Shown in pieces: positions 5,451 through 62,884 of a DNA stretch of 64,000 nt. Made by a program: the position numbers and the translations under genes. Source of the stretch: Omphalotus guepiniiformis (Eukaryota > Basidiomycota > Agaricomycetes > Agaricales > Omphalotaceae); NCBI GenBank assembly GCA_028554645.1, contig JAQOOI010000070.1:310001-374000 (forward strand), read 5' to 3'. The notes beneath the pieces are model-generated. The model was given only the letters and a program-made list of their open reading frames with translations, searched no databases and was not told where the DNA came from. How positions within the stretch are numbered: the stretch's first letter is position 1; every line of letters begins with the position of its first letter.

Positions 5451-5487
5451 TCTCCCCCAAACTAAAATCTTGACCGTCCCCGGTCAA
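5451..5487 (-). promoter_or_regulatory. 3' polypurine tract plus inverted repeat (element A)
   Basis: On the minus strand the run GTTTGGGGGAGA directly abuts the 3' LTR and is the plus-strand primer (PPT). Just upstream in sense direction is the perfect 7-bp inverted repeat TTGACCG/CGGTCAA (5470-5476 and 5481-5487) with a TCCC loop (GGGA on the sense strand). The same arrangement recurs in the middle of the element and in elements B, C and D. On the plus strand it lies upstream of antisense gene 1. Confidence 0.85.
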
Positions 5488-6003
5488 TTCTTCAGCCAAT
5501 CTACTGACTTTTATTTTATAGTACAGCAGTTGTTAAGAGTTCAATAACATTATTCATCCGGTCAATATTCCATTATTCAAACACCGGATCGAAAGCCGCT
5601 ATGGCACGATCACGTGACTTTTTGCCGAACTGCCGGAACTGAATACAAACAGCTTTGGCCTCACGAACTCAGAAGTGTGTTTTCCTAACTCGTTCATTTT
5701 AAAGTTTTTCTGGAATATCGGCCCTCAACACGAGCTGTTTCCCATCATAGGTGAGTCATTATTACCTTATACGTTGTCATGTCTTTTATTCACATCTTTT
5801 TGCTTTTCACGCCCGTCACTTCATTATATATGGGCTCAACTTCGCTTTTTCTTTCTTCCTATGATTCCTCTCCCTCCGACTCTCAAAATTTACAGAGCGA
5901 GCCGGAACTTCGTTCTTTCTCTTCTGACTTGTATTCTACTTCTTTTAATCGTTCTATTCTTCTTTTGTGTTGGCTTCATTCTCTCCCTTCTTCGTTTGCT
6001 CCA

Positions 6004-7912
6004 ATGGCTCCCAAACTACCAACAGACGACAAACGCGCGGTAGCAAAAAGACGGCCCCAACCGTCGAAGTAACAAGCTCTCGAAAACACGTCGCTAAATC
6101 GAAGAATCCTGTCCCTTCCTTCGAGCCAGTCTCTCTTCCCCTTGTTCGACACCATATGTTACAAAAGTCGTTAACAAAAATTCAGTCCCAACTTTCCGAA
6201 ATTTATATCGCCAACTTCGAATCTCCGGACTACGAGAACGATTATCCCAGTGCCCGTGTCCTGGAGGCTCTAACATACGCATACCTCGACTGGGTAAGAC
6301 ATTTTCTTTATTTTCTTTGTTCCTTATATTAATATTTTTATTTCTACCTTCTAGTCTCATTTCTTTGACGACTGGGCTAACGAGACGGATCTGCCTTATT
6401 ACGCCCGTTGCTTCTGGTGGTCTATTTCTCGTCTTGCTTGGTTACTTCGCGACAAGGAGTGTAAGGAGTACAAAGACTTCGAACCTCTCGTTATTCCAAA
6501 AGCGACTACGAAACGACTTCGCCAGCTGAAACTTTCGGTAGCTCCCTCATTATATTTCCCTTTTCTTTACTAATTCTCTTTATAGCCTTTTCCTCTTTCT
6601 CGACAATTACCGGACGTGGACTCTTACGACTTCAAGAACGAAGCCTCCTTCCAATTCGATTCCTTGCCTGAGTTTTCCGCTCCTCTCGATACTGAAACAT
6701 CTTCAGTTGCGCCTCCTGTGAAGGTTCTTACTGAAAATCCGCCGGTCGAGGATGAATACTCGCCTTCTTCCACCGACTCCGACGATTCCGAGCAGCTAGA
6801 CGAGCTCGCTTCCCCTCCTAAAAAGAAGGCGAAACGCGACCCTTCTCCTTCTACTTCCAAGATCGTCACGCGTTCTGCAACTAGGAAACCCGAGTCGGTT
6901 GCTCCTGCTCGCGGTCGTGGTAGACCCAAGAAGATTAAACCCGAGGTCCGTATTCTTTTTACTGCTCTTATTTTCCTTTTATTTATTTCATCTTTGTCTA
7001 GGCTACGGAAGCAAGTGCCGGTGAAGACGATGAAGTTGTCGACACTGTTACCGCCAATCCGTTCGAGATTACTTACGCTACTAACGCAGTAAGTATCGTT
7101 TCTTTCATCTTTCTTCCTTTTATTAACCTTTTAAAACAGCCTACTGGAAGCCGAAAATCGCTCACACGAGATTCACGTTTCGCCTCTGCCGCTGCCACTA
7201 TCCCTTTCCAATTCGTCGATCCCACCGGCTTGCGGCATAAATTCAAGGACCTCGTCTCTGTCAATCGGTCTCTCCAGGGTTACAGTCTCAACCCGATCTG
7301 CGCTGGCTGTTTAACCGGCAATTTGAGTCAACCGTGCGTCTGGCGCGGAGAGGATAATAAGTGCAGCGTCTGCGAGAAGTGGAAACGCCCATGTTTGTTC
7401 CAGTATTCCCTTGACAGCATGGCGAAGGTTCGGGACCTAGCATACCAAGAAGGGCGTCAACACCCTGCAGGTAAGTCCTCATCCTTTTCCTTTCATTATA
7501 TCTTTCTAATAACTTTCTAGTTATCAACTCGCACGTTTCCAATCTTCTACAGCTTCATACCGAGTTCGATAGTCTGGTTCGACAGTCGAATCAAGCACGC
7601 GAGTCTGCCAAACGGCTTAGTTCGTTAATCCACACCGAGCAGCAGCGTCTTCGCGATGCTTGCATCGATGCTCGTAGCGTCCTTCGTTCTCTCGAACCTG
7701 ACGCCAACTTCCTTGCGAACAAGACTCAGATGGAGCTATTGGCTGCCGCGCTCGGTTGGAAGGTTGACGACTTCCGTCTTCGCAGCGCCGTCGACGTCAA
7801 CGACCAAGGAGAACCGATCGCAGTGGATCAAGCGTACCTTGATAAGGCCAAAGAAAACGCTAATCAAAGTGCAGGCGTTGGGGAATCTGAGGAGGTAAGT
7901 CCAGAAGCTTAG
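6004..7912 (+). CDS. Antisense gene 1 of element A: zinc-cluster, AT-hook protein (spliced)
   Basis: I predict six exons: about 6004-6293, 6355-6537, 6586-6945, 7002-7088, 7140-7470 and 7521-7912, separated by short introns with GT/AG ends. The product has an N-terminal Trp-rich segment, an acidic Ser-rich stretch, the nuclear-type basic run PPKKKAKR and an AT-hook core GRGRPKK near 6910-6935. A six-cysteine cluster (C-x2-C-x8-C-x9-C-x2-C-x5-C) starts with ICAGC at about 7300. A Gln/Arg-rich likely coiled segment follows, and then ALGW at about 7749. Genes at the same place in B, C and D share the cluster. This suggests a nuclear DNA-binding protein (inference). The first exon is doubtful: the only good ATG (6004) is out of frame with downstream codons, so a small indel or a missed upstream exon is likely. 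Confidence 0.7.
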
Positions 7913-8402
7913 GCACTGGACTTTCTTCCTTCATTCATTATTTCGTGCCCCAGCGTCTTCTTTTGAATTACTTTCTTTACGCTTATCTCGACGGTCTCGT
8001 TTCTTTGTAGGTCGTGCTGCGTCGCATCGAACATTTATTTTACACCTTGTCATTACCTTATCGCTGCCTGTACCTAAGTTTAAGCTCTACCCATTGCTTG
8101 TAGACACTTAGTGTACAAAATTTATCATTTTTATTGTGTGCCTCTTCTTAATTATGAAGGATTTTACACCTTAAGACTCTAAGAAATCGAAATCACAGCT
8201 GACTTTCTAAAGTCCGGCTGAAATTCAAAATCGAAGGATTGTTACTCAGCGCTTAAATTCCATTTTAAGAAATGCCCACAACTTCGTTATTACATTCTTT
8301 TAGCTTTTATTATTCTTTTTATTCTTTATGTTTCTTTTAATTCGAAGGACGAATATACACCGGATAATAAATATATTGATAAGTTTTCCGGAACTTGTCA
8401 CC
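7913..8402. other. Spacer between antisense genes of element A
   Basis: An AT-rich non-coding interval. It holds a GTCCGGC at about 8212 and an ACCGGA at 8359-8364, copies of the CCGG-type motif recurrent in this element. The GAG/GTAAGT just before the gene 1 stop could be an alternative donor extending gene 1 into this region, but I see no conserved exon. Confidence 0.5.
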
Positions 8403-8440
8403 CTCTCCCCCAAACCAAAAATTTCAGCGCCCCCGCTGAA
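8403..8440 (-). promoter_or_regulatory. Central PPT plus inverted repeat (element A)
   Basis: This is a second copy of the 3' module. The minus strand reads GGTTTGGGGGAGAG (8403-8416), a PPT match, next to the 7-bp inverted repeat TTCAGCG/CGCTGAA (8423-8429 and 8434-8440) with a four-base C loop. It ends 166 nt before the gene 2 ATG and about 77 nt before its TATA box. It could be a central plus-strand primer, an upstream promoter element of gene 2, or both. Confidence 0.75.
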
Positions 8441-10080: not shown

Positions 10081-13000
10081 TCACGTCTGTCTTTTTGACC
10101 TGGTTTTGACTCTTTCGTCCCAATCTGGTTCCTCATTGTCTTCTAAGTTGTCCCCAAGATCTGAATCACTGTCGTCTTCATCAGAATCGTCCCCTTCAAG
10201 CCTAAGATTGGGTATGGCATCAAAAATATAATCTGTATTTTTGACCAAGTCTGTATCTTCATCCTCAATCATAGCTTCCAATTGCTTACTATCCAAGTCT
10301 ATTAGTTCATGAATATTGTCTGGCAATTGTATAGGTTCGTATCTGGCTGCATGTGGTAGGACTCTAAATGCTGCAACTTTTTCTTTGAGCACTGACCCAT
10401 CCATTTCCGCAATAACATATGATCCACCCTTTGTCCTTCTGATTACAATCATGGGACCCTTATATCTTGGATACATCTTTCTGTCTAAACTCTTTTCAAT
10501 CTGAGTATTCCTGACTTGAACCAGAGTTCCTGGTTTAAAGTCATAGTCCTTTATAGTATTTCCATATTCTTGTTCAAACTTTATTAAAGCTTTTCTTTTA
10601 TTTTCATCTACTCTTTCTCTCATTTCATTCACATGAGTTCTATGCTTAGCTAGAGCTTGTGCTCTGAATCCAAGTAATTCTTCATGAGTCAGAATTCTGT
10701 CTGGAGGTTTAACCAACCAAGTTGATTCCACAATATCCAAAGGTAGTATTGGCTCTGCCCCAGTAACTATGAAGTATGGAGAACATCCAAGACCTCTTCT
10801 AACAGTCACTCTATCTGCCCAAAAGACATGTTTCAGAAACCAGTACCATCTCTTCAAATCTCCACCAGTTGCTTTTGCCAAAGCAGTTCTGATATCAAAA
10901 TGAGCTCTTTCTATCTTCCCATTGGCTTGAGAATTGTATGGAGATATAGTAATACCTTTTATACCATATTTCTCTTCTAACCATCTCAACATTGCTCTCA
11001 TAGCTGGGGCATTATCAGTGATAACCTCATCAGGGCAACCCCATCTACAGATAATGTCTTCAAAGAACCATTCACCCATTAACCTTGCTGTCTCTGATTT
11101 CAATGCTCTACCTTCTGACCAAGAAGACAATGCACATCTACCATGAACAACATTTGAACAGCCATTACTAGGTGGTGACACTTTAAACACATCTACATGA
11201 ACCTTTTGAAACAAAGAAGGTGTATAAGTAAGAGTGGGTGGTATTTTCAGAAGTTCCAACTTTCTATTCTGACAAGCCTGACATGATTGGACAAACCAAT
11301 TAATATCTTTCTCCATATCTGGCCACCAAAATCTCTTGTCTATGACAGCTTTAGTTGCAAACATCCCTTTATGACCCAAGTTGTCATGTGCAGCATGCAT
11401 CATGTACATTCTCTTTGCCTTAGATACAACCAACTTGTGTTGACCATCTAGTTCTTCATTCCTTCTATACATTTTACCATCTTTATCAACAAAGAACTTA
11501 ACAGCTTGTCTTAGAAAAGATCTCTTTTCAGTTTTATTCAAACTTTTAATAACAGCTGAGTTCTTGTCTAGATGCCAATCCTTTATTAAAGGTAGAAGAT
11601 CGTCCATCTTCTTTCCTTCATCCCTTCTATGTACCTCACTATAAGGATGAGAATTACTCCACTCTGGATCTCCTGGTGGAATTACTAAAGTTTGAGCAAA
11701 AGCACCCTTCACCATTCCATGAGCTTCTAAAACTCTAATCCTATAACATTCTGCAATTCTTTCTTCTTCTATGCATTCTTGCAAATCATCTTCAAAATCA
11801 TTTTCAGAGTTTGCCATTTCAAAAAGATAACCACCTCTATTGTCTATTTTATCTCTGAAAGACTCAAAGTCTAGTGGTATATCATCTTCTTCATTTTGCA
11901 TTCTAAACTGTAATGGTTCTCCATTATCTTCATCTACATAGTCTTCCTCATTTACAGGTGGTCTTTCAGTTGTTATACCTCCAGGACCCCTTCTAGATAG
12001 ACCATCTGGTCCATGTAAAGTTCCCTTAACATGTACCAATGTAAACTGATATTTCCTTATATCCTCTATCCACCTGTTTATAGTTGCATTAGGACCTGAA
12101 CTGGGATGATCCAACATGCCCTTTATATAGCTAGCATCTGTTTCCACAGTCAAATTCCTACACCCATAAATCAAGTAATAAGAAGCTTCTAAAGCTAATT
12201 TCAGACCATACAGCTCTCTTTTTGGTTGAGAAAACCTTGCTTCCCTTTCATTCAATGTAATTGAACCAAAGTAGTTAAAGTACTTCTTCTTAGGATCTTC
12301 TGGGTCAGTTTGGTATATATAATATCCAACTGCCATCCAAGAGGTATCTACAGCAAGTGTGATCCCATTTTCTGACATATAGTCTATAGGTCTCAAACAA
12401 GGTGCAACTCTGATAGCTTCCTTAAGAGCTACTACAGAATCCCATTGTTCAGCCTTCATCTCAAATGGAACATTTCTGGTCAAATATTGCAACGGTGCAG
12501 CAATTTTAGCATAGTCCTTTATAAATTGTCTAAGTTGGCCAGCAGTACCCAAGAAAGCCCTGACATCTGTCTTAGAGTCAAATCTTTGCCATGTAGTAAC
12601 CACTTCTGCTATCTTATTAGAAGGTGCTTGACCCTCATATAAACAACGGTGACCAACAACCATGCCTTCTTTTACACAAATGAATGCCTTTGTACCAGAA
12701 AATGTACCACCAACATATTTCATTCTTTGTATCACTCTATTCATATTTTGCATATGTTCCCATACAAATCTCCTTATACCATTGTTTTGAGGAATAGTTT
12801 CATATCTGCCATCTGGTAACTCATATCTTGTTGCTGGACCCCTTACAGGTACATCATCAACATAAGGTATAGTCACATGTGGGATTTCATCTCTTAGAAT
12901 GAAAGTAACATCATCATGAAAGATAGGTACTGAATTAGTCCAACCCATAGGCAGTTTTACTAGTCTATGTGGCCCAAATGGTGTTTGGAAGGTGGTTAAG

Positions 13001-14025
13001 TCTCTAGAATCATCATCTATCAACCTTTCATCATACCCAACAAAGATGTCCAGTGTTCCTAGACATGCTCTTCCTGCAAAGTTTCTAGCAACATCTGCAG
13101 TAGCTGGTGGAATTCCTGAATGTTGTATAGTAACTTTATTCAATGGTTCCAGACTATGCACCAATCTCAAACTTTTTCCATCTTTCTTTAAAACACAAAA
13201 CCATTTTGATCTATAAGAAGAACTTGAAGGTTCATAAACTCCAGAATCAATTTTTGCCTTTATAATTTTACACACATCATCAAATATACCAGGTGGTATT
13301 GGAATGTTTCTTTCAACCCAAGGTACATGTGGTAAGACTGGAAATTTCACAGGGGGAAAGAAATCTGTTCTAAAGTTTCCTCCTTCTGCAGGTTCCCAAG
13401 CAAAAGCTTTTTCTTGTTGTTTCATCAAATGATGAACTAACTTCATTTCTTCTGGCCATAAAAAGCCTTCATCATGATTTTTGTCTATGATATTCTTTCT
13501 TTCTTCATTGTATCTCTCACCCAGTGTGAACTCAGGTGGATTTGGAGATAATTCCGGCATTTCTGCTAACGGATCACCAAAAATATTCCTTTCTACACGA
13601 AACTCAGCCGGTAAAGTAGCTTTAACCGGTCTAACTTTATCCTTTACAGATTTGTACTTTCCATACACATCTACAAACTCTTTATTATTTTTCTCTTTCT
13701 CTATATTACAAGAATTCTCCTCTTGAAACATAGTATCCTTCTTTTCTTTCAACTCTTCTCTCCAACTACAGAACACTTGCTTGTCCTTTCCCCTACTCTT
13801 TATAGTAGTAGAGTTCATATAAGCATCTAGCACTTCTGCAGCTTCTTTATCTCTTTCCACATACTCTTTAGCAGCAAATACAAAAGTTTCTGCCAATTCT
13901 TCTTTCTTAAAAATTCCATCTTCATCAGGTAGTTTATACCCATCCACAAACAATTCACCATTTCCTTTCAGGCCAACTCTTAGAGCTACCTCTCCCTGAG
14001 GGCCAATCAGATCATAGAGGTCTGA
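10081..14025 (-). CDS. pol: pol of element A (RT, RNase H, integrase)
   Basis: About 1315 codons are read from the -1 frameshift site. The N-terminal linker contains DLIGPQGEVAL, shared with B, C and D. The reverse transcriptase has WVERNIPIPPG, LPMGWTNSVPIF and the catalytic YVDD in PYVDDVPV. RNase H has VDTSW, KRELYG and ETDASY. The H2C2 zinc motif is in LGHKGMFATK followed by CQACQ. The integrase has D in HVDVF, D in ITDNA and E in GKIERAH. A GPY/F-like module (YKGPMIVIRR) follows, then an acidic tail. I see no chromodomain. No in-frame ATG precedes the conserved start, which fits fusion with PR by frameshifting. All catalytic residues are intact. Confidence 0.93.
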   Translation of the reverse strand, partial: SDLYDLIGPQGEVALRVGLKGNGELFVDGYKLPDEDGIFKKEELAETFVFAAKEYVERDKEAAEVLDAYMNSTTIKSRGKDKQVFCSWREELKEKKDTMFQEENSCNIEKEKNNKEFVDVYGKYKSVKDKVRPVKATLPAEFRVERNIFGDPLAEMPELSPNPPEFTLGERYNEERKNIIDKNHDEGFLWPEEMKLVHHLMKQQEKAFAWEPAEGGNFRTDFFPPVKFPVLPHVPWVERNIPIPPGIFDDVCKIIKAKIDSGVYEPSSSSYRSKWFCVLKKDGKSLRLVHSLEPLNKVTIQHSGIPPATADVARNFAGRACLGTLDIFVGYDERLIDDDSRDLTTFQTPFGPHRLVKLPMGWTNSVPIFHDDVTFILRDEIPHVTIPYVDDVPVRGPATRYELPDGRYETIPQNNGIRRFVWEHMQNMNRVIQRMKYVGGTFSGTKAFICVKEGMVVGHRCLYEGQAPSNKIAEVVTTWQRFDSKTDVRAFLGTAGQLRQFIKDYAKIAAPLQYLTRNVPFEMKAEQWDSVVALKEAIRVAPCLRPIDYMSENGITLAVDTSWMAVGYYIYQTDPEDPKKKYFNYFGSITLNEREARFSQPKRELYGLKLALEASYYLIYGCRNLTVETDASYIKGMLDHPSSGPNATINRWIEDIRKYQFTLVHVKGTLHGPDGLSRRGPGGITTERPPVNEEDYVDEDNGEPLQFRMQNEEDDIPLDFESFRDKIDNRGGYLFEMANSENDFEDDLQECIEEERIAECYRIRVLEAHGMVKGAFAQTLVIPPGDPEWSNSHPYSEVHRRDEGKKMDDLLPLIKDWHLDKNSAVIKSLNKTEKRSFLRQAVKFFVDKDGKMYRRNEELDGQHKLVVSKAKRMYMMHAAHDNLGHKGMFATKAVIDKRFWWPDMEKDINWFVQSCQACQNRKLELLKIPPTLTYTPSLFQKVHVDVFKVSPPSNGCSNVVHGRCALSSWSEGRALKSETARLMGEWFFEDIICRWGCPDEVITDNAPAMRAMLRWLEEKYGIKGITISPYNSQANGKIERAHFDIRTALAKATGGDLKRWYWFLKHVFWADRVTVRRGLGCSPYFIVTGAEPILPLDIVESTWLVKPPDRILTHEELLGFRAQALAKHRTHVNEMRERVDENKRKALIKFEQEYGNTIKDYDFKPGTLVQVRNTQIEKSLDRKMYPRYKGPMIVIRRTKGGSYVIAEMDGSVLKEKVAAFRVLPHAARYEPIQLPDNIHELIDLDSKQLEAMIEDEDTDLVKNTDYIFDAIPNLRLEGDDSDEDDSDSDLGDNLEDNEEPDWDERVKTRSKRQT

Positions 14026-23920: not shown

Positions 23921-23954
23921 TTTCCCCCAAAGTAAAATAAGATCGTCCCCGATC
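23921..23954 (-). promoter_or_regulatory. 3' PPT plus inverted repeat (element C)
   Basis: The minus strand has CTTTGGGGGAAA adjoining the LTR, and the inverted repeat GATCG/CGATC (23941-23945 and 23950-23954) around a TCCC loop. It has the same layout as in A and B and lies 272 nt upstream of the gene 1 ATG. Confidence 0.8.
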
Positions 23955-29188: not shown

Positions 29189-29219
<31 letters not shown>

Positions 29220-29455: not shown

Positions 29456-29457
29456 TC

Positions 29458-31444: not shown

Positions 31445-31452
31445 TACTTTCG

Positions 31453-41892: not shown

Positions 41893-43385
41893 TGTTGCGC
41901 TGAAAACGCATACACACCTGAAATACCTGAAATTAAACAATTTCTACTGTGAATATGATGGGAATAAAGGGCTAGACTATGTCCCATAGTGCTAGCTAAA
42001 ACATAGAACACGAATAGTTAAAGGCTCGAAGTGAAAGGACTACGATGTACGAGTATGCATCAAGACCTTATGGCTGATATGCCTCTAGACCTTCGGCGAA
42101 GTAACTACCTGCTGCGAGACTGTACAGTATGGTCAGACCCACCCTGCCTGGCAAAGAGCCCTTCGTCTGGAAGTCGCTATTCAAGTATCTGTGTAATCCA
42201 CGGGACTTAGGAAGGAAGAAACTACACACACACAGGCATAATAGCCTCATGAGCCTCGATAACGTCGAAAGGACAAAGCTAGAGGTATCGCCGAGCCATC
42301 AAAATGGTTTGTTCGAACTTAGCCGATCTCCTAGAACCTGCAGATTGATGATATACTGGAGATAACGCTTTATGATCGGAAATATATGATCGACGATTCC
42401 GTTCCGAGATACTAGATGGTCAAAGCTATGAAAATGATCAGTCTCAATGACTGTATAATAACTTATTAGTAAAGTAATGACAGAATTGACCTTCGAGCGC
42501 TGGATATTGGTATATCTACGAGGTGCTATGGGGTCTAGATGTTGAAATAGGAGAAAATACGGAAGCCCGACGGGATAAATGACTAGAAACTGCCCTCGGC
42601 GCCCCTATAAGTACACTGTAAAACAGTTACGAAGATGAATAATAACGAAATGCATAGGAGTAGTTCGTTTAGAATGGCTCGAGCGCATGATAAGAAGGGT
42701 CTAGATGTACCAAAAACATCACTAAAACATAATACTTACACATATATACCCAAGAACTGCACATAATTACCCTCTAGACGTGCCTACTTACCCAACTCAG
42801 TCATATTGTTTCTGTTTATATCCATTTTATACTCGATGTTATCCCTCTGTTCCTTTTAATTACTCCACTCAGTTTTCTATCTATTTATGAAATACTTACA
42901 AGCAGTAGAGTACATATACTGTCATGTATAGGGTCGAGCACCCCAGGTTACGACTGCCCGCCAAATTGGAGAACTTTACGTATCTTCTAGAGCGTTAAAT
43001 CGCAGAAGGCCTCTTGATTGTGAACGTCAGGCCCCGGTTCTTCGAGCTGGTAGAGGCAGACTATTAGGAATTGCAGTGCTTTAATAGAGTGCTAAATATC
43101 TGAACATCTGTTGTGTTTGAACTGTCTGTCTGTCTGTCTGTCTGTCTGTGTCTGTCTGTCTGTGTCTGTCTGTCTGTGTCTGTCTGTTTGCTGTTTCTGG
43201 TACTCGTCGAAGGGTCTAGACGGTGATCTTACAGTTCAGTTAGTCTTCCCAACAGTCTAGCTCGACTTTAGTCAGTTTTCTGCGTGCGGAATCTTTGCCA
43301 ACGCCAGACTACACTCGCTTTTACAAGGCAACCTTTGAGTTAAGACGAGTTCCTACGTCTTAGAGTGCTCATTTCGCTGCTATTA
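41893..43385 (+). repeat. 3' LTR of element B (1493 bp)
   Basis: Matches 27959-29455 apart from about a dozen substitutions and the TCTG run. It is followed by the CCGG duplication and then the rest of gene 2 of element C. Confidence 0.93.
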
Positions 43386-43389
43386 CCGG
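43386..43389. repeat. Target-site duplication of element B (right copy)
   Basis: CCGG, the partner of 27955-27958. Confidence 0.85.
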
Positions 43390-44434
43390 GACGACTTGGC
43401 AAAGCGCAGAGAGACTCTCAGTGGGTCTAAGAAGCGCAAAGTACGTTTTTATTGACCATCCCTCTCATTTCGAGTATCTAACTGCCTATCGGTGTGTAGC
43501 CAGCTAAAACTCCCAAACTTATTGAGGATGACGATGATGACGATGAAGAGATTGAGGTCATTACTGGTGACGGAGACGTTACTGTAAGTATCTAACTCCT
43601 TGGTTACTGAGTATCTAACTCAAATCCCACATGGTCTTTCTTTTCTCAGATGGCAGATGGACCTTCTCTTGGGCTCTCTGCGTCGATCCACGCTCCCAAT
43701 AAGGATAACAAGGACTCTAGCAAGGACAAGACCAAAGGTTCTTCCACTACTACCACAGTTCATAAGTCTTCCAAGGAAAAAGTAGTAATCACTTCTCCAA
43801 GGGTAAGCAGATTTATGTTCAGAACTGTTTATTCGTTTCTCTAGACTGATGTACCATGGTAACTTCGCAGGCTACCTCAGTTGGACCCAAAGATGTAAGT
43901 TTTTAGTTCCATCTGGAGATATTCATGCAGTTTCATGTACTGACTATAAATGTTCGTGTAGAATGAACCTATTCCTGAGCCCCACAAGGTGATTGTCATG
44001 AAGAAGCCTCGTATTGAGAACCCAATCGTCAACCTTAGAGAGGAGACAGACCGTGAGTAGTCACCCAATCTGCGGCTTTTTCGAGTATCTAACTCAACTA
44101 TCCTGCAGATGAGCGCAAACTCCGGGAGAGTGGAGAAGAGATTGTGACTCGTATCACTGCTCTGTTCCCTTTCATGGACTTGGACCACTTCTCTCCTGAG
44201 GTTCTTCAATCAATTTCCAACTTCTTGAAGACAGAACTCAGTGTTCATCAACATGCCATTCAGTATCATCATTCTCAGTACAGATTTGCCTACAAGGAGT
44301 TTTCCCGTCTGGAATTGCTCCGAAGACAGAAGGAGAAGGCTTACAGGGCCAACCAGAGTCCCTTGGAGTCTGGTCCAGGTACTGCTGATGATCCAGCTCC
44401 TTTCCATGCATTTCCATCTGCAGACATTCTCTGA
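43390..44434 (+). pseudogene. Antisense gene 2 of element C, 3' part
   Basis: This continues exon 2 (GACGACTTGGCAAAGCGC, to 43440). Later exons are 43500-43583, 43650-43802, 43871-43894, 43962-44052 and 44109-44434. It has an acidic run (EDDDDDDEEIE), LGLSASIHAP, a Ser/Lys/Thr stretch, then KKPRIENPIVNLREETD and the conserved C-terminus (FSPEVLQSISNFLKTE...HAIQYHHSQYRF). Three of the introns carry GAGTATCTAAC-type motifs. It is convergent with pol, whose stop is 201 bp away. It is separated from its promoter by element B and so is non-functional now. Confidence 0.8.
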
Positions 44435-44635: not shown

Positions 44636-47600
44636 TCATTTATTTTGTGAAGATTGAGACCTGGTCTGGACTGGAGCGTCCCAATCTGGTTCTTCTTCAT
44701 CTGCATCGTTTGCAGATTGTAGTTCTTCATCACTGGACTCATCAAGATCTTCATCTTCAGCAGGAATTCTCAGTTGAGGAATACTGTCAAAGATGTAATC
44801 TCTCTCAAGTTCAGGGTCTAACTCAAAGTTATCATTGACCATCTCTTCTAGTTGTTCACTAGTTAGGTCTATAAGTTCATGAATGTTCTCAGGCAGTTCA
44901 ATTGGTTCATATCTAGCTACATGGGGTAGCACTCTGAAGGCAGCAACCTTTTCTCTGAGCACTGTACCATCCATCTGGGCCACAATGTAGGATTCCCCTT
45001 TGGTTCTCCTTATTACAATCATGGGTCCCAGGTATCTAGGATACATCTTTCTGTCCAAGTTCTTCTCAACTTGTGTATTTCTGACTTGTATAAGTGTACC
45101 AGGTTTGAAATCAAAGTCTCTGATAACATTTCTGTATTCTTCTTCATATTGTCTAAGAGTCTCTTTCTTGGTTGTATCAATTCTAGATATCATTTCCTGC
45201 ACATGGGTTCTATGCTTAGCTAGAGCTTGTGCCCTATAGCCAATAAGTTCCTCATATGTCAAGATTCTATCTGGAAGTTTTACTAACCATGTAGATTCAA
45301 CAATATCCAAGGGTAGGATAGGTTCAGCTCCAGTAACAAGGAAGTATGGTGAACATCCAAGTCCTTTTCTAGCTGTAATTCTATCTGCCCAGAAGACATG
45401 TTTGAGAAACCACCACCATCTCTTTAGATCTCCACCTGTAGCTTTTGCCAAGGCAGTTCTAATGTCAAAGTGGGCTCTCTCAATCTTGCCATTTGCTTGG
45501 GAATTGTAAGGAGATATAGTAATTCCTTTAATTCCATATTTATCTTCTAGCCATTTAAGCATAGCTCGCATCTGGGGTGCATTATCAGTTACTACTTCAT
45601 CAGGACATCCCCATCTGCATATAATATCATCAAAGAACCATTCTCCCAATGATCTAGCATTGTCTGATCTTAAGGCTCTTCCTTCAGACCAGGATGAGAG
45701 TGCACATCTGCCATGTACAACATCCTTGCAACCATTACTTGGAGGTGATACTTTGAATACATCCACATGAATCTTCTGAAACAGGGAGGGAGTGTGTGTA
45801 AGAGTGGGAGAAATCTTCAACAATTCTAATTTTCGGTTCTGGCAGATTTGGCAGGATTTGACAAACCAATTGACATCTCCATTCAAATCTGGCCACCAAA
45901 AACGCTTCTCTATGAGAGCTTTTGTTGCAAACATTCCTTTATGTCCCAGATGGTCATGAGCAGCATGCATCATGTACATCCTTTTCTCTTTAGGCACAAC
46001 CAGTCTATGCTGGCCTCCTGTATCATCATTCCTTCTATAGAGTCTACCATCTCTGTCTACAAAGAACTTTACAGCCCTGGAAATGAACTTTTTCATAGCA
46101 GTCTCACCTAGGTGAGCTAGAGGCTGATTGCCCTGCAGGTACCAATCTTTGATTAGGTCTAGTTGTTCATCCAGTTCCTTTGTAGATGCAGATCTGTGAT
46201 CCTCTCTATATGGGTGTTCATGTCTCCATTCAGTACCTCCTTCAGGTATAACCAAGGTCTGTGCAAACTGCAACATCGAGTTAGATACTGGATGTTGAAT
46301 TGCTAACAGCTCTCTAATGGAATTCAAGTGACGTTCTTCTTCAAGAGCTTCTTGCAAATCGTCCTCAAAGTCGTCTATTGACTTTGCAACTTCCTGCAAG
46401 TAACCACCTCGAGTATCTATTTCATCTTTAAAGGCTTCAAAATCAAAGGGTACCTCAGATTCACCATCTCCCATTCTGAATTTCACTGGCAGACCATCAT
46501 CTTCATCAACAAATGAATCCGGATCTCTAGATGCCGCTCTTTCAGTTGGTATGGTTCCTCTAGGTGGTCTAGATAGTCCATCTGGTCCCTTATGTTCAGT
46601 GCCCTTGATGTGTACCAAGGTGAAGTGGAACTTCCTTATTTCTTCAATCCATCTGTTTATAGTTGCATTGGGACCACTACTGGGTTTGTCAAGCATTCCT
46701 TTAATATAGCTTGCATCTGTTTCCACAGTAAGATCCCTACATCCATATGTCTGGTAATATGTTTGTTGTAAGGCCAACATCAAGCCATATAGTTCTCTCT
46801 TGGGTTGAGAAAACCTTGCTTCTCTTTCATTTAAAGTAATGGAACCCATCCAGTTGTAGAACTTTTTCTTTGAATCTGCAGGGTCTCTCTGATATAGTTG
46901 GAAACCTACTGCCATCCAGGAAGTATCTACTGAAAGGGTGATTCCAGTACTTAAATCATAGTCAATAGGACGAAGTGCCGGAGCATTTCTGATCCCATCT
47001 TTAATCATTTCTACAGCTTCCAGTTCTGCAGGACCCATTTGAAAAGGCACATCCCCAGTTAAGATTGTCAAAGGTTTTGCTTTCTTGGCATAGTCCTTTA
47101 TGAACATTCTCATCTGACCAGCAGTGCCCAAAAATGACCGGATATCTTTCTTCTCAGACCATTTTGATGCATCACAAGTCAGGACAACTTCAGCTAGCCT
47201 TTCAACTGGCTTTTCTCCTTCATAACTGACATGATGTCCAACAACATCACCTTCAGCTACACAGATGAAAGCTTTGGTCCCTGCAAAGGTACCACCAGCA
47301 TGTTTCATTCTTTGCACAATTCTGTTCATATTCTGCAGATGCTCCCACACAAATCTTCTGATGCCAGAATTTTCAGGGATAGTTTCATAACCTCCATCTG
47401 CAGTTTCATATCTGCTGACAGGCCCTTTTACTGGTACATCATCAATGTAAGGTTTAGTTACATGTGGAATTTCATCTCTGAAGATGTATGTAACATCATC
47501 ATGGTAGATTGGTACAGAATTTGTCCAACCCATAGGTAACTTTACTAATCTATGTGGGCCAAAAGGTGTTTGGAAGGTTGTAAGATCTCTTGAACTTTCA

Positions 47601-48736
47601 TCAACCAGCCTCTCATCATAACCAACAAAGATATCCAGTAATCCCAAACATGCTCTTCCAGAGAAGCTTCTAGCTATATCTGCAGTTGCAGGAGGAATTC
47701 CTGAATGTTGAATAGTCACTTTATTGAGTGGTTCTAAACTATGGACCAATCTTAAGCTTTTTCCATCTTTCTTTAAGACACAGAACCATCTGGATCTATA
47801 GGATGAACTAGAAGGCTCATATACACCAGCATCTATTTTGTCCTTAATCATTTTACACACTTGATCATAGATCCCTGGAGGTATAGGAATATTCCTTTCT
47901 ACCCAAGGGGTGTGTGGTAACACTGGAAACTTTACTGGAGGAAAGAACTCTGTATTAAAGGTTCCTCCTTCAGATGCTTCCCATGCAAATGCTTTCTCTT
48001 GGACTTTCATAAGATGGTGTACAAGCTTCAGCTCTTCAGGCCATAAGAATCCTTCATTATGATTCTTGTCTACAATTTCTTTTCTTTCTTGAGAGTACCT
48101 CTCACCAGGAGTGAAATCTGGAGGATGAGTAGGTAACTCAGGCATATCTTTTAACGGATCTCCAATTATTTTTCTTTCAATCCGGAACTCCGCAGGTAAG
48201 GTAGCTTTAACAGGTTTGACCTTAATAGCAACTGGTTTGTACTTTCTAGAAGCCAAAACAGTCACCAATCTGGCCGTTTTGTTGCCATTCTTATCTCTAC
48301 TCCATCTGGGTCTTGAAGATTGGACTGGTTTAGGTTCTCTTTTGACCGTTTTACCCTTATCCATCCTCTTTTCAGTTCCAGATGCAGGTTCCGAAGTGTG
48401 ATTAAGTACCGTGCAAGTATCTAAGTCTGAATTCTGAGTATCTAAGTGCTCTTTTGAATTCAAATTTAAATTTTCTCGCCAGGTACAGAACACTTGTTTC
48501 TTTTCTGAGTCTACAGACCGATTTAAATACGATCTAACCGAGTCTGCAGCGGCTATATCTTTTTCTCTTATGCTGGACTCAGCTGCAAACACAAATGCCT
48601 CAGCCTTTTCAGGTTCTGAAAACAATTCATTGTCTGGCAGCTTATATCCAGCAATTGTGGCATTGCCATCTTCATCCATTTCAATACAAACAGCTACCTC
48701 TCCCTGATCTCTTATCAGTTCATTGAGGTCCGATGA
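44636..48736 (-). CDS. pol: pol of element C (RT, RNase H, integrase)
   Basis: About 1365 codons from the frameshift site; the first internal ATG is at 48679. RT has WVERNIPIPPG, LPMGWTNSVPIY and YIDD. RNase H has VDTSW, KRELYG and ETDASY. The zinc motif is LGHKGMFATK followed by CQICQ. The integrase has D in HVDVF, D in VTDNA and E in GKIERAH. A YLGPMIVIRR module and an acidic tail follow. The frame is open throughout. It contains GAGTTAGATACT at 46278-46289, the reverse complement of the element C motif, within coding sequence. Confidence 0.92.
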   Translation of the reverse strand, partial: SSDLNELIRDQGEVAVCIEMDEDGNATIAGYKLPDNELFSEPEKAEAFVFAAESSIREKDIAAADSVRSYLNRSVDSEKKQVFCTWRENLNLNSKEHLDTQNSDLDTCTVLNHTSEPASGTEKRMDKGKTVKREPKPVQSSRPRWSRDKNGNKTARLVTVLASRKYKPVAIKVKPVKATLPAEFRIERKIIGDPLKDMPELPTHPPDFTPGERYSQERKEIVDKNHNEGFLWPEELKLVHHLMKVQEKAFAWEASEGGTFNTEFFPPVKFPVLPHTPWVERNIPIPPGIYDQVCKMIKDKIDAGVYEPSSSSYRSRWFCVLKKDGKSLRLVHSLEPLNKVTIQHSGIPPATADIARSFSGRACLGLLDIFVGYDERLVDESSRDLTTFQTPFGPHRLVKLPMGWTNSVPIYHDDVTYIFRDEIPHVTKPYIDDVPVKGPVSRYETADGGYETIPENSGIRRFVWEHLQNMNRIVQRMKHAGGTFAGTKAFICVAEGDVVGHHVSYEGEKPVERLAEVVLTCDASKWSEKKDIRSFLGTAGQMRMFIKDYAKKAKPLTILTGDVPFQMGPAELEAVEMIKDGIRNAPALRPIDYDLSTGITLSVDTSWMAVGFQLYQRDPADSKKKFYNWMGSITLNEREARFSQPKRELYGLMLALQQTYYQTYGCRDLTVETDASYIKGMLDKPSSGPNATINRWIEEIRKFHFTLVHIKGTEHKGPDGLSRPPRGTIPTERAASRDPDSFVDEDDGLPVKFRMGDGESEVPFDFEAFKDEIDTRGGYLQEVAKSIDDFEDDLQEALEEERHLNSIRELLAIQHPVSNSMLQFAQTLVIPEGGTEWRHEHPYREDHRSASTKELDEQLDLIKDWYLQGNQPLAHLGETAMKKFISRAVKFFVDRDGRLYRRNDDTGGQHRLVVPKEKRMYMMHAAHDHLGHKGMFATKALIEKRFWWPDLNGDVNWFVKSCQICQNRKLELLKISPTLTHTPSLFQKIHVDVFKVSPPSNGCKDVVHGRCALSSWSEGRALRSDNARSLGEWFFDDIICRWGCPDEVVTDNAPQMRAMLKWLEDKYGIKGITISPYNSQANGKIERAHFDIRTALAKATGGDLKRWWWFLKHVFWADRITARKGLGCSPYFLVTGAEPILPLDIVESTWLVKLPDRILTYEELIGYRAQALAKHRTHVQEMISRIDTTKKETLRQYEEEYRNVIRDFDFKPGTLIQVRNTQVEKNLDRKMYPRYLGPMIVIRRTKGESYIVAQMDGTVLREKVAAFRVLPHVARYEPIELPENIHELIDLTSEQLEEMVNDNFELDPELERDYIFDSIPQLRIPAEDEDLDESSDEELQSANDADEEEPDWDAPVQTRSQSSQNK

Positions 48737-52624: not shown

Positions 52625-52626
52625 TC

Positions 52627-54475: not shown

Positions 54476-54483
54476 GTTCGAGG

Positions 54484-55689: not shown

Positions 55690-58600
55690 TCCCAGATCAA
55701 GGAGAAGCCGCGGTGGTTTTTGAATTAAATGACGAAGGTATTCCCATTGGCATAAGTGATGTAGTATTTGCAGATATAAACGAAGAGCAAAAATCAAAGT
55801 TTGAGAAGCGAGAGTTACGTGATCTATACTTATCTGCCGCGGAGAAGTATATTGATCTAAAGAGTGATAAAGAAACGATGAGACCCGTATTGAGATCCTA
55901 TTTGAGTTCGGTGATGCGCCGATTTTCGGCATCTGCATTAAAAGCCAGGTGATTAATCATTTTAGGCATTTGCAGTGAGGTATTAGAGGGTTGAAAGGTG
56001 CCCGCCTTGTCAATCAAAATGTGTTGTGATTTGAGTAATAAAGCATGTTCTATTACCTACGGTACAACATGTGTATCAAGGTTCTAGGCTAGTCAGTACA
56101 GTTGTGATGTAGAGAATTGTTCAATAGCCATCCACTGTTGAATCAGACTCACCCAATCTCGTAACGAGAACTCTGACATCACAACGTCAATTGCATCATA
56201 TAACTATTAGGGGAACATCTTCCTCCGGTCAATAAAGAATAAAAACCCGGCGGAAACTAAAAATGGATGGGACGCGAAATAGAGTCGAAATAATGGATCT
56301 AGAATAGTTTTGGGGAATTTACTCCTTAATTAATCGCCAGGAACAAAAGTTGATCGAGGAAATTTGCTTCGATTAATTGTCCGGTGAAAATTGCTTGACA
56401 AGAAACCGGTTAGGAGGTGTAAAAACTCGATCAGTAAAATTTCTCGGAATACTACTGAATTGAAGGAGTTCCTTTAACAAAACAATGTGATACTTTGAGG
56501 GGTATAATTTCTATCAGGTGATTAATCCTATGGAACCCGGATGCCCGAGAAATGTCAAGGAAATCCGTAAAAATGAAATAAAGGGGCTGAATATTGACTA
56601 TAATAAAAATAATGGAATTAAAACGCATTTTTGAGGTTTTGCCTCATAAAATAGATCTATACAAGTAATAATGGACATACTTGACACAGATACTTACAAC
56701 CTACATACCCGGATATAGGTATATATATAAAACAGGACAGTTTAGCTATAATTTCCGTTTTTATTAATTTTGGACTGGCAGTATGTATAAAAGGGCAGTA
56801 ACCTGGAGAGAGAAAATCCAGGAGAGTACCATAGAGTCACAGGGTCACTGGGGATCGTCTTTATAACGTGAATCGTGCCTGTGAAGGGAAATCCTACCAA
56901 AAACATAAAGTTGCCCTGGTCTGTTTATAGTCCGGTGTTTATTGCGATATTGTATAAAGATCATTGTTGGTTGAATTGAACTGGTTGTGTTATTGGAATT
57001 GGTTGTTTGATCTTGTGGTCAATTGGTTGTGATTGTGCAGTGAACACCTGTCTTGTTCAAAACCGTCTTGTGCTACTTTTTGCCTTAGTGCATTTTAAAA
57101 GCTCAGCTATAAAGTTCTTGTGATAAAGATATAAAGTTCTAATAAAGAAGCCATAAGTTTGGTCGTGCGGAACCTTCGACAACGCCCCCTCAGACTCGCA
57201 CCTTTCGAGTGACTTGGTTGTTTTGGTTGTTTTTGGGTTTTTGTTCATTAGCCCTTTAGCAGTTCATTTCCCCGATTCATTCTCATCATCGGTGTATGGA
57301 GCGCAAAATCCTGCTGCGTACTCTCAAGCAAATTTCACGGTGCAAGAAGTAGAGCTAGAAGACGGCATAGAAGAGTTGCAGCAAATTCCCCTGTTTGATG
57401 TAAGGAGCATCGCGATGCTTGATGTATCCCCTGATATGAAAGATCAAGTGAGGAGGCACGCGTTGCGGCTGTGGAAGGAACGTTACGAACCAGTTAGTAT
57501 CTTGGCAGGGAAGAAATACAAACCTGTCGCGTTGAAAACACGCCCTGTTCTAGGAGATTTACCATCGAAGTTTAGAATCATAAGAGATATAAAAGGAGAT
57601 CCATTGGCTGATATGCCGCAGCTTTCGCCTAATCCTCCAGAATTCACGCCGACTGGTAGGTATACTCAGGAACGTAAAGAGATAATAGACGAGATACATA
57701 AGGAAGAGTTCCTTTGGCCAGAAGAACGGAAGTTGATGCATTATATGATGATGCAGCAAGAGAAAGGATTCGCGTGGGACGACAGTGAACGCGGAAGATT
57801 CAGAACAGATTTCTTTCCTTCTGTAGAGATGCCAGTGATACCTCATACACCTTGGGTTGAGAGGAACATTCCTATTCCCCCTGGTATCTTTAATGAAGTA
57901 TGCGCGGCAGTTAGACGAAAGATTGACGCGGGAGTTTACGAACCATCGAACTCGTCTTACCGATTGAAGTGGTTCGCGGTGTTAAAGAAAGATGGAAAAA
58001 GTATTCGACTAGTACATAGTTTGGAGCCGTTGAACGCGGTAACAATAGCACATTCTGGTATACCACCTGCTACTGAAGAGCTCGCGGAGAAATTTTGTGG
58101 TAGAGCTTGTGGAGGAATTCTAGATTTATATGTTGGCTATGATGAAAGAGAGTTGGCAATAGCATCGCGAGACTTAACTACGTTCCAGACTCCCTTTGGA
58201 GCCCTGAGGTTAGTAACGCTACCGATGGGATGGACAAATTCAGTACCAATCTTCCACGATGATGTAACACACATATTACAAGAAGAGATCCCGGAGTTTA
58301 CGCAACCATACATCGATGATGTTCCTGTACGCGGTCCTGAAACGACTTATCAAAGTGAAGATGGCACGTACGAGACCATTCCTGGTAATGATGGGATACG
58401 GAGGTTTATTTGGGAACATTTCATCAATATGAATCGGCTCATTCAAAAAATGAAGTACTGTGGTGGGACTTTCTCGGGCCCCAAAGCTGTATTGTGTAAA
58501 AGCGAGATTACAGTGGTCGGACATAGGTGTACACGAGAAGGAAGAGAGATCGACCCGGAACGAGCAAAAACTATTACCAACTGGGGTGGACCTGAGAATA

Positions 58601-61014
58601 TCCTAGAAGAGAAGGATATAAGACCATTCTTAGGCACCGTGGGACTAGTAAGAATGTTCGTCAAAGACTATGCAAAGATCGCGGAGCCTTTAACCCGATT
58701 TACGTGTAAAGATATTCCGTTCGAATGGCGACAAGAGCAAAGTGACGCGTTGGCAAAGTTGAAAGAGGCAGTAAAGAATAGCAAGGCATTACGACCACTG
58801 AAGTATGATGTGGAAGATCCTGTTATATTGGCGGTAGATACGTCGTGGAAAGCTGTTGGGTTCTATATTTGTCAAGTGGATCCAGAGAATCCGCGACGAA
58901 GGTTCTACTCCAGATTCGGTTCGATTACACTAAGTGATCGCGAAGCTAGGTTTTCACAGCCGAAACGGGAGTTGTTTGGTTTGTACCGCGCGTTACGAGC
59001 GTGCCAGTATTGGTTGTTTGGTATTTGCAACCTTATAATCGAAACTGACGCGAAGTACATTAAAGGCATGTTAGAGCACCCTGATCAAATGCCGAACGCC
59101 GCGATAAATAGGTGGATAGAGTCGATCATGATGTTTCATTTTAAACTGAAGCACGTACCAGGCAAGGTTCACGGACCTGATGGACTATCACGGTGGGATA
59201 AGCAAGTAGGTGATGATGAGTATGATAATCCTGAAGATGGTGAAGTTCAAGAACCCTATAAATTAGAGGAGTTTGTAGATAAGATCGACTCTAAGCATGG
59301 TTACGCGCAAGTATTAGTTGATGAGAAAGAGGAATGGAAAAGTAATTATATGACTGGTTTAGCCGCGTCAGTAGACGACTTTAAGGAAGAATTGACGTGT
59401 GCTTACGAGCAAGAACGAGAGTTCCGCGACATACCAGAGGTAAAACAGTTTGTAGCCGCGAACTTGGCTAGTGGAGTACCAGAACTCGAGGAGCCACCAG
59501 AGCATATTGACGAAACAGAGTATGATGAGTCTAAGCGATCGAAGGGAGCGATAAACCAAGATAAAACAGTCGCGGAGGTTTTCAAATGGCTAACAGACAC
59601 TTCTAAGAGGCCTGTAGGCTATGAGAATAACAAACGCTTCAAGAACTTTTTAAGGTTAGCGCGGAACTTCTTTATACAAGACGGAAAACTCTATCGACGT
59701 GGAATCGAGGCAAAACATAAGCTGGTAGTTGAGAAGTCGCGTCGCGTCGCCATGATCCATGCTTGTCATGATAGTCTAGGGCACCGCGGCTTCTTCGCTA
59801 CTAAATCCTTACTTATGGAACACTTTTGGTGGCCTGAAATGGAGAAAGACATCTATGAGTATGTGAAGACCTGTCATACGTGCCAAGTAAGACAAAAGAC
59901 AAAGATCAGGATTCCTCCTACCGAGACGAAGACACCGTCAATCTTTCAGAAAATTCACGCTGACACCATGTATATGCCGGCGTCGAATGGCTACAAGCTG
60001 ATTGTGCATGGTAGGTGCGCGTTAACCGGCTGGATGGAAGGAAGACCGTTGAAAGCAGAGTCCGCAAGAGCGATTGGGCAGTGGTTATGGGAAGAAATTA
60101 TCTGCCGCTGGGGCTGTCTTATAGAGATAGTTACAGATAATGGCGGACCTTTTCTAAAGGCGTTAGACTGGTTGGAGAAGAAATATGGCGTACGCAGTAT
60201 TCACATATCACCTTATAACTCCCAAGCCAACGGTATCGTGGAACACGCACATTATGATGTGCGACACAGTCTCATAAAGGCCGCGGGAGGTGCCGATTCA
60301 AAATGGTTTTACTATTTCTACTTAGTAATGTGGGCTGATAGGTGTACCATAAGAAAGAGATTTGGTTGCTCCCCATTCTTTGCAGTAACTGGTGCGCACC
60401 CCTCGCTACCTTTTGATATCGTTGAGGCAACATGGCTTGTAGAATATCCTGATCATTTCATAAGTGACGCGGAACTAATTGGACTACGAGCGAAAGCATT
60501 GGCTAAGCACGCGAAGCACATAGTTGAATTACGGGAACGTGTAACACGTGAGAAAAGGTCACGGTTGTTGAAGTTCAAAAAAGAGTATAAGTATGTTATT
60601 AAAGACTACGCGTTTAAGCCAGGTAGTTTGGTATTAGTTAGGAATACTCAGATTGAAAAATCTTTGAACTCTAAAACAAAGCCGCGCTACTTAGGACCTA
60701 TGGTAGTACTCAGGCGTACCACAGGTGGCAGTTACATTGTGGCAGACCTGAATGGTGCGGTGTTCCAGAATAAAATTGGAGCTTTCCGCGTAATTCCATA
60801 TTGGCCAAGGTCGCACATTGAACTCCCTGAGAACCTAAGTGAGCTGATTGGTTTGTCAGAAGATGGCTTGTTGAGAATTGAACAAGGTCTAGAAGAAGAA
60901 GAAGAAGATTTATCCGTAGAACACGATCAAGCGGACCTAGATGGTGAAATTCACGCGGACGTTTCAGTATACGACGCGAAGCACTGGATATCGAAGCCGA
61001 AGATCTTTCAGTAA
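55668..61014 (+). pseudogene. pol: pol of element D, split by a solo LTR
   Basis: The 5' part (55668-55911) has EELIPDQGEAAVVFE. The 3' part resumes at 57293. Removing the LTR and one TCGG gives ...LSSVYGAQNP without a frame change. RT has WVERNIPIPPG, LPMGWTNSVPIF and YIDD. RNase H has VDTSW, KRELFG and ETDAKY. The zinc motif is LGHRGFFATK followed by CHTCQ. The integrase has D in HADTM, D in VTDNG and E in GIVEHAH. A YLGPMVVLRR module and an acidic tail follow. Apart from the insertion all catalytic residues remain. Confidence 0.9.
55912..57288 (+). mobile_element. Solo LTR of the element A family inside pol of D
   Basis: Exactly 1377 bp with TGATGCG...CATCA ends, nearly identical to both LTRs of element A, in the opposite genomic orientation to A. 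It is flanked by a perfect TCGG duplication (55908-55911 and 57289-57292). It arose from a full insertion followed by LTR-LTR recombination. The LTR promoter TATAAAAG is at 56786-56793. Confidence 0.93.
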
Positions 61015-61232: not shown

Positions 61233-62670
61233 TCAAGTATCAGTCACGGAGGGCATATCTTCGTCACCAGTCATATTGATAAGGGGAACGTTGGTTTTAT
61301 TAACCAGCTCCTTCTGCTGCGACGCGATGCTCTGGTAGCTCTTCATCAGCAAATCCCGCATTTGGAGCTGGAGACTGATCTGATGGTTGACCGCGATAAG
61401 TTTAGAGCGAGTCTCGAACTCCAGCATGGTGAGGCTACGATCGGTAGGCCCACTAACAGGTTCGAGCACCGCGAGATTGGCACGATCAACGAGTGACTGC
61501 ACAACTGAGTTAGAGAAAGTGGAGACAGGGTCTACCAAAAGATAGGTTAGTTGAAAAGTCGCTAGCAGCAGTACGAAGACGTGACACGTACTAGGAGGTG
61601 CCAGAGGTGGATCGAGCATAGAGAAGTTGTGCGCCCAAGTAGGAGGAGCTGCCGCGACACTAACCACCTCCATCTTAGCTTTCTTGGCAGGAGGATTGAG
61701 GGTACTCTTATCCACCGTGGCAACTGCCTTAAGGTATTGCCGAGAAGTAATAAGCATGCGTGGTATCTCTGAAAAGTGGAGATATCTTACGGGGTGATTG
61801 GTCGACGAGTGAGACTATAAAAGGAGTGTTTAAGTCAGTATAGCGTTGGGAGAAAGAGTTGTGGTCGTACCCTTTTAACCACCGCGACACTAGGGTCAAT
61901 CTTCGGAGTAAAGGGAGCAACCCGTGTAACTTCTTCAACTGCCGCGAGGTCGAGAGTCTGAAGCGAGGTACATAGTTTTAGCAACAGAGCAAGATTGTTC
62001 GGGATAGTGTGGCGACCTACCGTGGTGTTAGTAGTGGAATCTGCAATAGAGGGGGATTCATCGTCACCCATAGCAATATCGCTACCCGCCGCGTCATCGT
62101 CAACCTCCTCGTCACTACTATCAATACGAGCTTGGGATGCAATACGCTTGCGAATCTAAGAAAAGTTTAGTACTGGCGATTATTCAAGAAAAAGAACTGA
62201 TTACTTACGCGGCAGCTAGTACAAACGCGACCTTTGCCTTTGACGGGCACTGGGGTTACAGCGGTTGGAACAGGAGCAGCCGCGGTGACTTTAGGAACCT
62301 CCTTGGGTTTACCAAACTGAACACATTTACCGCGGTACGGACCAAGTAAATGATGAGTTGGTGTATACTTCGCGGTAACTGGATCACGCGGCAGTTGTTC
62401 AAAGAAGAACAGAGTGAAAGTACGAATGTCAGTGTTAGCCAACGCGGCATCAGGGTGAGCTTTCCAGAGCTCGAGCTAAAAAGAGTGAAGTAAGGCGCGG
62501 GAAGGGAGTCAGCGCAGTAGAAAACTTACGAGTTTTTGTGCACAAGACATCGCGACGCGATTAGCATCGTCAGCACCACGTTTGGCTCGACGCTCGCTAA
62601 ACGACTTATAAAGAGGTGCTACCTCTTCCACGAGAAACTGGACGTCAACAGAAGAAGTATCAGTAGACAT
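61233..62670 (-). CDS. Antisense gene 2 of element D (spliced, conserved unknown)
   Basis: Exons: 62670-62530 (141 nt, the same length as in A), 62475-62209, 62155-62021, 61957-61871, then one starting near 61770, and a last one from about 61530 to 61233. The ATG at 62670 is chosen because the TATA box lies upstream at 62708-62716; an in-frame ATG at 62733 lies before that box. The product begins MSTDTSSVDVQF. It has VKGKGRVCTSCR, an acidic stretch, PAKKAKM and a C-terminal helical part (MLEFETRSKLIAVNHQISLQ) that fits the position of the A, B and C C-terminus but is diverged. Function is unknown. Confidence 0.68.
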
Positions 62671-62707
62671 AAGTGAATCCGATAGGAAGAACTTAGGGTT
62701 TGGAGGG

Positions 62708-62716
62708 CCTTTTATA
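62708..62716 (-). promoter_or_regulatory. TATA box of antisense gene 2 (element D)
   Basis: The minus strand reads TATAAAAGG, 38 nt upstream of the chosen ATG. Confidence 0.6.
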
Positions 62717-62846
62717 CCAGGCCAGGCAGTCATGACTACGGGGAAACTTGTCAGTGGAGAATTCTAAGTCCGCGATACTTACTGTCTTTCAAAAGTTGAC
62801 GCAGCAGACCATATGGTATTTTACCAAAGGACACGAGTGTTCAAGA

Positions 62847-62884
62847 CAACTGGGGACAGTTGCAATTTCAAAGATGGGGAAGGG
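62847..62884 (+). promoter_or_regulatory. Central inverted repeat plus PPT (element D)
   Basis: CAACTG-GGGA-CAGTTG (62847-62862), then after nine nt a purine run AGATGGGGAAGGG (62872-62884). It is the same layout as in A, B and C, with a third type of stem sequence. It lies 176 nt upstream of the gene 2 ATG on the other strand. Confidence 0.75.

Follow-up and report, generated by a model that had tools for sequence, protein, structure and literature searches.

A window of 64,000 nt from the 42.5 Mb genome of Omphalotus guepiniiformis (contig JAQOOI010000070.1, positions 310,001-374,000; "the window" hereafter) contains four Ty3/gypsy retrotransposons of related families, A (-), B (+), C (-) and D (+). 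In these families and in a fifth, E, found elsewhere in the genome, a module composed of a hairpin, a U-rich spacer of 11-15 nt and a polypurine tract (PPT) occurs twice per element, once at the 3' long terminal repeat (LTR) and once 2942-3454 nt upstream of that copy (5/5 families). The hairpin precedes the PPT in the same orientation in all ten family-level modules (central and 3' of A-E), and its letters differ between families while the pairing stays, which points to the paired stem as a working part. We propose that the module is a structured unit for plus-strand priming, at work at the 3' LTR and probably a second time inside the element, and assign this reading a probability of roughly 0.55.

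Two modules per element

The seven modules of the window were all recovered at the positions, and with the hairpins, loops and purine tracts, given in a first-pass annotation of this DNA. On the minus strand, the 3' module of element A consists of the hairpin TTGACCG[GGGA]CGGTCAA (5470..5487) and the PPT GGGGGAGA (5451..5458), directly after which the LTR begins (5450, TGATGCG); its central module has the hairpin TTCAGCG[GGGG]CGCTGAA (8423..8440, identical in L074 and L075) and again GGGGGAGA (8404..8411), with no LTR start behind it. Element C, also on the minus strand, carries GATCG[GGGA]CGATC (23941..23954) with GGGGGAAA (23921..23928), which adjoins the LTR start TGTTGCG, and centrally TCAACG[GGGA]CGTTGA (27393..27408, identical in L077-L080) with GGGGGGAGA (27370..27378). 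On the plus strand, the central module of element B is CAGCG[GGGA]CGCTG (38582..38595) with GGGGGAGA (38611..38618) and its 3' module AGACCG[GGGA]CGGTCT (41524..41539) with GGGGAAGA (41551..41558), again next to an LTR start, TGTTGCG. The central module of element D is CAACTG[GGGA]CAGTTG (62847..62862) with GGGGAAGGG (62876..62884); the 3' end of D, past the window end, reads CGACTG[GGA]CAGTCG, spacer, GGGGGAGA and then the D LTR start. The proposal that one copy acts as the 3' PPT agrees with the position of the 3' copies at the PPT/LTR junction.

Family E (copy on C17) has both a central module, TTCAACG[GGGA]CGTTGAA, and a 3' module, GATCG[AGGT]CGATC. Its pol is 73% alike to that of A at the amino acid (aa) level, and from pol to the LTR it can be aligned with C. 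Since the pattern that led to E contains a fixed loop core, the independent tests that E provides are its 5' arm and its 3' module only. The order of hairpin, spacer and PPT is kept at both sites, with 19-20 nt from the stem base to the PPT end in the 3' modules and about 19-23 nt in the central ones. The loop had been described as GGGA, once GGGG; this is correct for the seven modules of the window, but elsewhere GGA (D 3'), AGGT (E 3') and, in single copies, GGAA and AGGA occur.

A scan of both strands of the window for a Watson-Crick stem of at least 5 bp around GGGA or GGGG, followed 6-26 nt later by a purine tract with GGGG, returned exactly the seven modules; 300 dinucleotide shuffles, a control that the first-pass annotation had called for, averaged 0.003 hits and never gave more than 1. 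When any 4-nt loop was allowed, ten sites were found (the seven modules and three others), compared to a mean of 1.45 and a maximum of 3 in 20 shuffles. Genome-wide, a pattern of loop core and PPT in which the 5' arm was left free gave 183 matches versus 22 for the reversed control pattern. Among the 100 matches listed of these 183, 14/15 B central modules have a B 3' module 2902-2966 nt downstream, and seven lie outside the element families; the two of those seven places that were read (L011 and L058) have stems of only 2 and 1 bp.

A and B have accessory frames with only about 25-35% aa identity, and the two best blastn matches between their pol-to-LTR regions are the two modules (central/central 39 nt, 90%, 2e-8; 3'/3' 35 nt, 89%, 3e-6). 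The best match of this region is also a module pair in A-D, A-E and B-E. Every one of the eight modules of A, B, C and E has the same-position module of another family as its nearest neighbor, which argues that the doubling is older than the split of these four families. Family D is left aside, its 3' module being nearest to the C central module and its central module to its own 3' module, both weakly. It is highly improbable that the central copy is a functionless remnant left by segmental duplication of the 3' end: the modules of one element are alike and the central PPT has no LTR start behind it, but the central modules keep their pairing through compensated changes and form the best match of the region in A-B, A-E and B-E.

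Constraint on the paired stem

Across the ten family-level modules, 90% of cells were paired versus 64.7% after shuffling, and the covariation score was 0.654 versus 0.182 (0/500 shuffles reach the observed value). In slid registers at most 45% of cells were paired. The paired cells, the cells with two-sided change and the covariation score all lie above all 500 shuffles and all slid registers. When right arms were dealt randomly among the ten modules, none of 100000 deals reached the observed stem total. With E omitted (eight modules), 2 of 40320 permutations reached it, namely the true order and the one in which the A and B central arms, which are identical, change places; for the 3' modules alone (1 of 24) and the central modules alone (2 of 24), the counts are the least possible. 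The sample behind these values is small, with ten modules from five related families, of which C and E share arms.

Within the stem, pairs 1 (G-C) and 4 (A-T) are invariant, with a G-C closing pair in 10/10 modules, while pair 3 shows all four Watson-Crick types (C-G, G-C, T-A and A-T). At pair 5, every 3' module has G-C; the central modules have C-G in A, B, C and E, and A-T in D. These results support selection on pairing. Changes on one arm are compensated on the other, as looked for in structured RNA; a DNA palindrome would also be expected to show this. The earlier statement that the arms differ yet always pair is borne out by the covariation and the arm permutations; at the level of single copies "always" does not hold, with pairs lost in 11 of 48 copies. 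This 48-copy sample partly consists of variants chosen on purpose and so leans to variants, and by our reading 10 of these 11 copies lost their one or two pairs through CpG changes.

Two further observations concern the surroundings of the stem. The left-arm letters of pair 3 in the 3' and central modules are complementary to each other in A, B, C and E (C/G, C/G, T/A, T/A), not in D (C/C). An outer helix between the 5' flank and the U-rich spacer was considered and rejected, as the modules' own flanks gave a total of -42.8 kcal/mol and swapped flanks an average total of -46.7 kcal/mol.

Possible roles of the modules

We infer the use of the modules in reverse transcription from their presence, doubling, order and near-fixed spacing and from the constraint on pairing. 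Hairpin (with a GGGA-type loop), U-rich spacer (U-box) and PPT would together form one plus-strand origin. The 3' copy would make the primer next to the LTR, and the central copy, as an internal PPT, would probably launch another plus-strand segment downstream of pol. A second purine tract resembling the 3' PPT is present inside the element in 5/5 families, and a role of the central copy as internal plus-strand primer is plausible. Reverse transcriptase (RT) copying the minus strand would pass the PPT, meet the hairpin and pause, and the RNase H thereby held near the PPT end would help to set the cut that frees the primer. This step is suggested by the distance from stem to PPT end together with the published spacing of the Ty3 active sites: polymerase and RNase H sites of Ty3 RT are about 13 bp apart, a value given as preliminary in the available text of the source (PMC5371799), so that an RT stop a few nt ahead of the stem would place RNase H near the PPT end. 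Taken alone, pausing at the hairpin appears the most likely step, and we put it forward tentatively. The wider proposal, that a template hairpin one RT footprint before the PPT stalls RT for the PPT-end cut, serves two origins per element and recurs in separate mushroom Ty3/gypsy lineages, is more doubtful still.

The recurrence draws on seven other Ty3/gypsy 3' regions. In two of these, from related families, a GGGA hairpin, ACGATG[GGGA]CATCGT, lies directly before the PPT (4 nt ahead of it), with the LTR start verified by the second LTR. Both families carry what we take to be a chromodomain, recognized by its motif in the translation, and are presumably chromovirus-like. Their hairpin sits in the last pol codons and is kept in 11/12 further copies. 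Ten degenerate pol codons over and just ahead of it are identical between the two families (p = 0.0011; the longest run elsewhere is 5 in 410 codons), which suggests constraint at the nucleotide level; local recombination between the two families could also be the source of this identity. Among the remaining regions, L067 (4842-4885) and L069 (4626-4669) share 44 nt at 100% identity across the PPT and the putative LTR start; their aligned pol-end stretch is only 75.6% identical, and in L067 about 3.7 kb separate the end of the pol frame from the shared segment.

The modules also stand next to antisense genes. A DNA dyad acting as operator or promoter upstream of both, with one module 5' of each gene and bound by a homodimer, perhaps of an element-encoded protein, is an unlikely explanation in our view. 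Candidate ATGs of gene 2 with open frames lie 166 (A), 210 (B), 194 (C) and 176 nt (D) from the central module, close to the 167-211 nt given earlier, although competing ATGs exist at 51 nt in B and 113 nt in D. The stems are strictly Watson-Crick, as a dyad would have it, with zero G-U pairs in ten modules, and palindromic CGG-CCG boxes of Sireviruses are read as regulatory motifs in the part of the account available (PMC2829016). Yet the GGGA spacer and the distance to the PPT are kept here while the half-site letters vary, which is the reverse of the usual dyad, and the half-sites differ even between modules of one element (GACCG versus CAGCG in A and B). Moreover, the orientation is constant, and there is no consistent distance to an ATG of gene 1, whose first exons are uncertain. 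The dyad put forward in the first-pass annotation is the weaker reading, since conservation is greatest in the asymmetric loop and in the spacing to the PPT rather than in the arms, and since the two chromovirus-like families have a GGGA hairpin before the PPT as well.

The claim that the module pair brackets gene 1 can be kept in part. The modules are about 2.9-3.5 kb apart in five families, but the frames between them are recognizably related in A, B, C and E only, not in D. In A, the region of gene 1 between both modules (5488..8422, +) has frames that match those of B, C and E at about 25-32% aa. A homologue search with the gene 1 frame of B found none, and a duplication relating gene 1 to gene 2 was rejected, with no blastp match between their frames at 1e-3.

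Strict Watson-Crick pairing would also allow both strands to fold, and for the A 3' module both do so as DNA (-6.8 and -6.4 kcal/mol). The hairpin might hence form in single-stranded minus-strand cDNA and stop an upstream plus strand before it displaces the PPT-primed strand, as a terminator ahead of each origin, and two origins per element would make such a stop useful. We regard this as quite improbable, given that the PPT strand is the one on which the G-rich loop is conserved and that A-tracts are unevenly distributed in the 200 nt behind the central PPT (6, 1, 3, 5 and 1 in A-E). Slightly less credible again is an RNA signal of another role (packaging, export or Gag binding) that happens to sit at the PPT. 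Some retroviruses have repeats flanking an accessory gene, and hairpins bound by proteins typically combine a kept loop with a paired stem of variable sequence; such a signal leaves the near-fixed PPT distance at both places unexplained, and an Rfam scan of the window gave zero matches above the gathering threshold.

Several observations weigh against a role of the modules as priming units. The complete lack of G-U pairs in the ten family-level modules (one-sided changes 0; G-U pairs are seen only in single copies) is odd for an RNA stem and leaves room for a cDNA or DNA-dyad role. The folding energies of several modules do not stand out (D central, z -0.2; E 3', z 0.7), and the loop departs from GNRA in three of ten (GGGG, GGA, AGGT). 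The number of pairs with two-sided change (5) was matched by 105/500 shuffles and the number of further pair types by 177/500. With 37/48 distinct copy sequences fully paired, the other 11 lack one or two pairs, and in one E copy (C27), whose pol frame is open, the central stem is mismatched. In the pol-to-LTR comparisons, a non-module stretch scores better than the module match in A-C and B-C, no module match was found in B-D, C-D and D-E, and the C-E modules fall within long matches. Families without the loop core would have been missed, because the search pattern that found E fixed it. In the chromovirus-like families the R-W-G-H-R codons largely force the palindrome, and the hairpin is lost in L094. 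The remaining five of the seven other gypsy regions have no GGGA-type hairpin of at least 5 bp, and are weak controls with a PPT that is putative (L067, L069, L073) or not located (L071, L072). Our confidence in the modules as priming units is unaffected by these weaker controls and by the narrowing of the duplication claim, because the evidence from pairing is independent of both.

The elements and their relation to known systems

The features expected of Ty3/gypsy elements were found, namely an LTR pair, a putative primer-binding site (PBS), gag, and a pol in which integrase follows RNase H. LTR pairs were located for A and B; none was found for C inside the window. In A, the 3' LTR (4074..5450, -) has its 5' partner at 17398-18774, and the pol frame (10084..13953, -) contains RNase H and integrase zinc-binding domains by Pfam. 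The Pfam order in A is zinc knuckle, aspartyl protease, RNase H and integrase zinc-binding, and the RT palm and integrase core models gave no match in A at 0.001. Element B spans 27959..43391 (+) from LTR to LTR (27959-29461 and 41893-43391), with pol at 32979-36851; it lies between the pol frame of C (44639..48679, -) and the C central module, and we read it as nested in C. The D pol frame is at 57214..61011 (+), where its listed start overlaps a solo A-type LTR within D (55912-57291); D itself extends past the window end. A, B and D each have a putative PBS, TGGAGCCCACCGCGAGGG, after the 5' LTR, and a PIF1-like helicase reading frame of 1042 aa lies at 18748-21876.

At the LTR starts themselves, the A LTR opens with GCCGA-TTT-TCGGC (5450 downward) and the C LTR (23920 downward) has the palindrome TTTCAGTACTGAAA. 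Near the starts of the B, D and E LTRs, no repeat of this kind with 5 bp or more was detected, and an LTR-side hairpin was rejected as a module part because it occurs in only A and C of the five families. In B, the stretch between the 3' PPT and the full LTR (window 41559-41892) comprises a copy of the first 72 LTR nucleotides and, behind it, 262 nt of other sequence; this interrupted start is perhaps a captured fragment or the result of a template switch.

The genome holds many more copies with open pol frames, some 91-92% aa like C, for which membership of the C family is only possible. Among proteins, 1315 matches to pol were obtained, the best 120 of which include a few named Lentinula or Armillaria (predicted proteins) and many from metagenomes, while pol-based scans of viral contigs and genome contigs returned zero relatives.

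A full-text literature search, mostly without subscription papers, found extra PPTs, U-boxes, antisense genes and the Sirevirus inverted repeat in the texts available, and no doubled hairpin-PPT module. The first-pass annotation had known of no description of the doubled module, which agrees with this search for hairpin and PPT together, not for the doubled PPT itself, as extra PPTs have been published for HIV-1, Ty1, Athila4/Calypso and Sireviruses (PMC2829016, available part). The setup of PPT-primed initiation was called largely unknown in molecular detail in the accessible portion of a 2009 review (PMC3185511). A hairpin kept at a near-fixed distance would be a structural cue for PPT priming that can be tested in vitro, and Ty3-type elements would, if our proposal is true, gain an internal PPT.

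HIV-1 and Ty1, with a central or internal PPT, and Athila4/Calypso, with an extra PPT, likewise have a second purine tract upstream of the 3' PPT, which in Athila4/Calypso is placed within the linker between pol and LTR (PMC2829016). The description at hand has no hairpin ahead of both tracts, and in the elements studied here the linker carries antisense genes. Antisense accessory genes also occur in plant Grande, RIRE2 and Retand and, by a reference title, in the fungal Boty-like element brtn, whose accounts, as far as available, contain no doubled PPT module. The U-box of several retroviruses and Ty1 is likewise a T-rich stretch upstream of the PPT, here placed between hairpin and PPT; the available part of the U-box account (PMC10085805) mentions no hairpin. 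Fungal GalEa copia elements also have a conserved hairpin, the Conserved Hairpin Site, which follows the 5' LTR in elements that lack a PBS (PMC5445492), whereas A, B and D have a putative one. Sireviruses resemble the present elements in having multiple PPTs (AGGGGGAG; here GGGGGAGA) and, at the terminal one, an inverted repeat in a precise position (PMC2829016, same part). A rough test for a Sirevirus-type junction of PPT and inverted repeat gave a best ungapped match of 9-13 of 20 in the five 3' ends, without a shuffle control, and did not identify one. In that description the Sirevirus repeat encloses the PPT, with its right arm in the LTR, and the upstream PPTs lack it; in the Omphalotus elements, by contrast, the hairpin lies wholly 5' of the PPT, at both copies.

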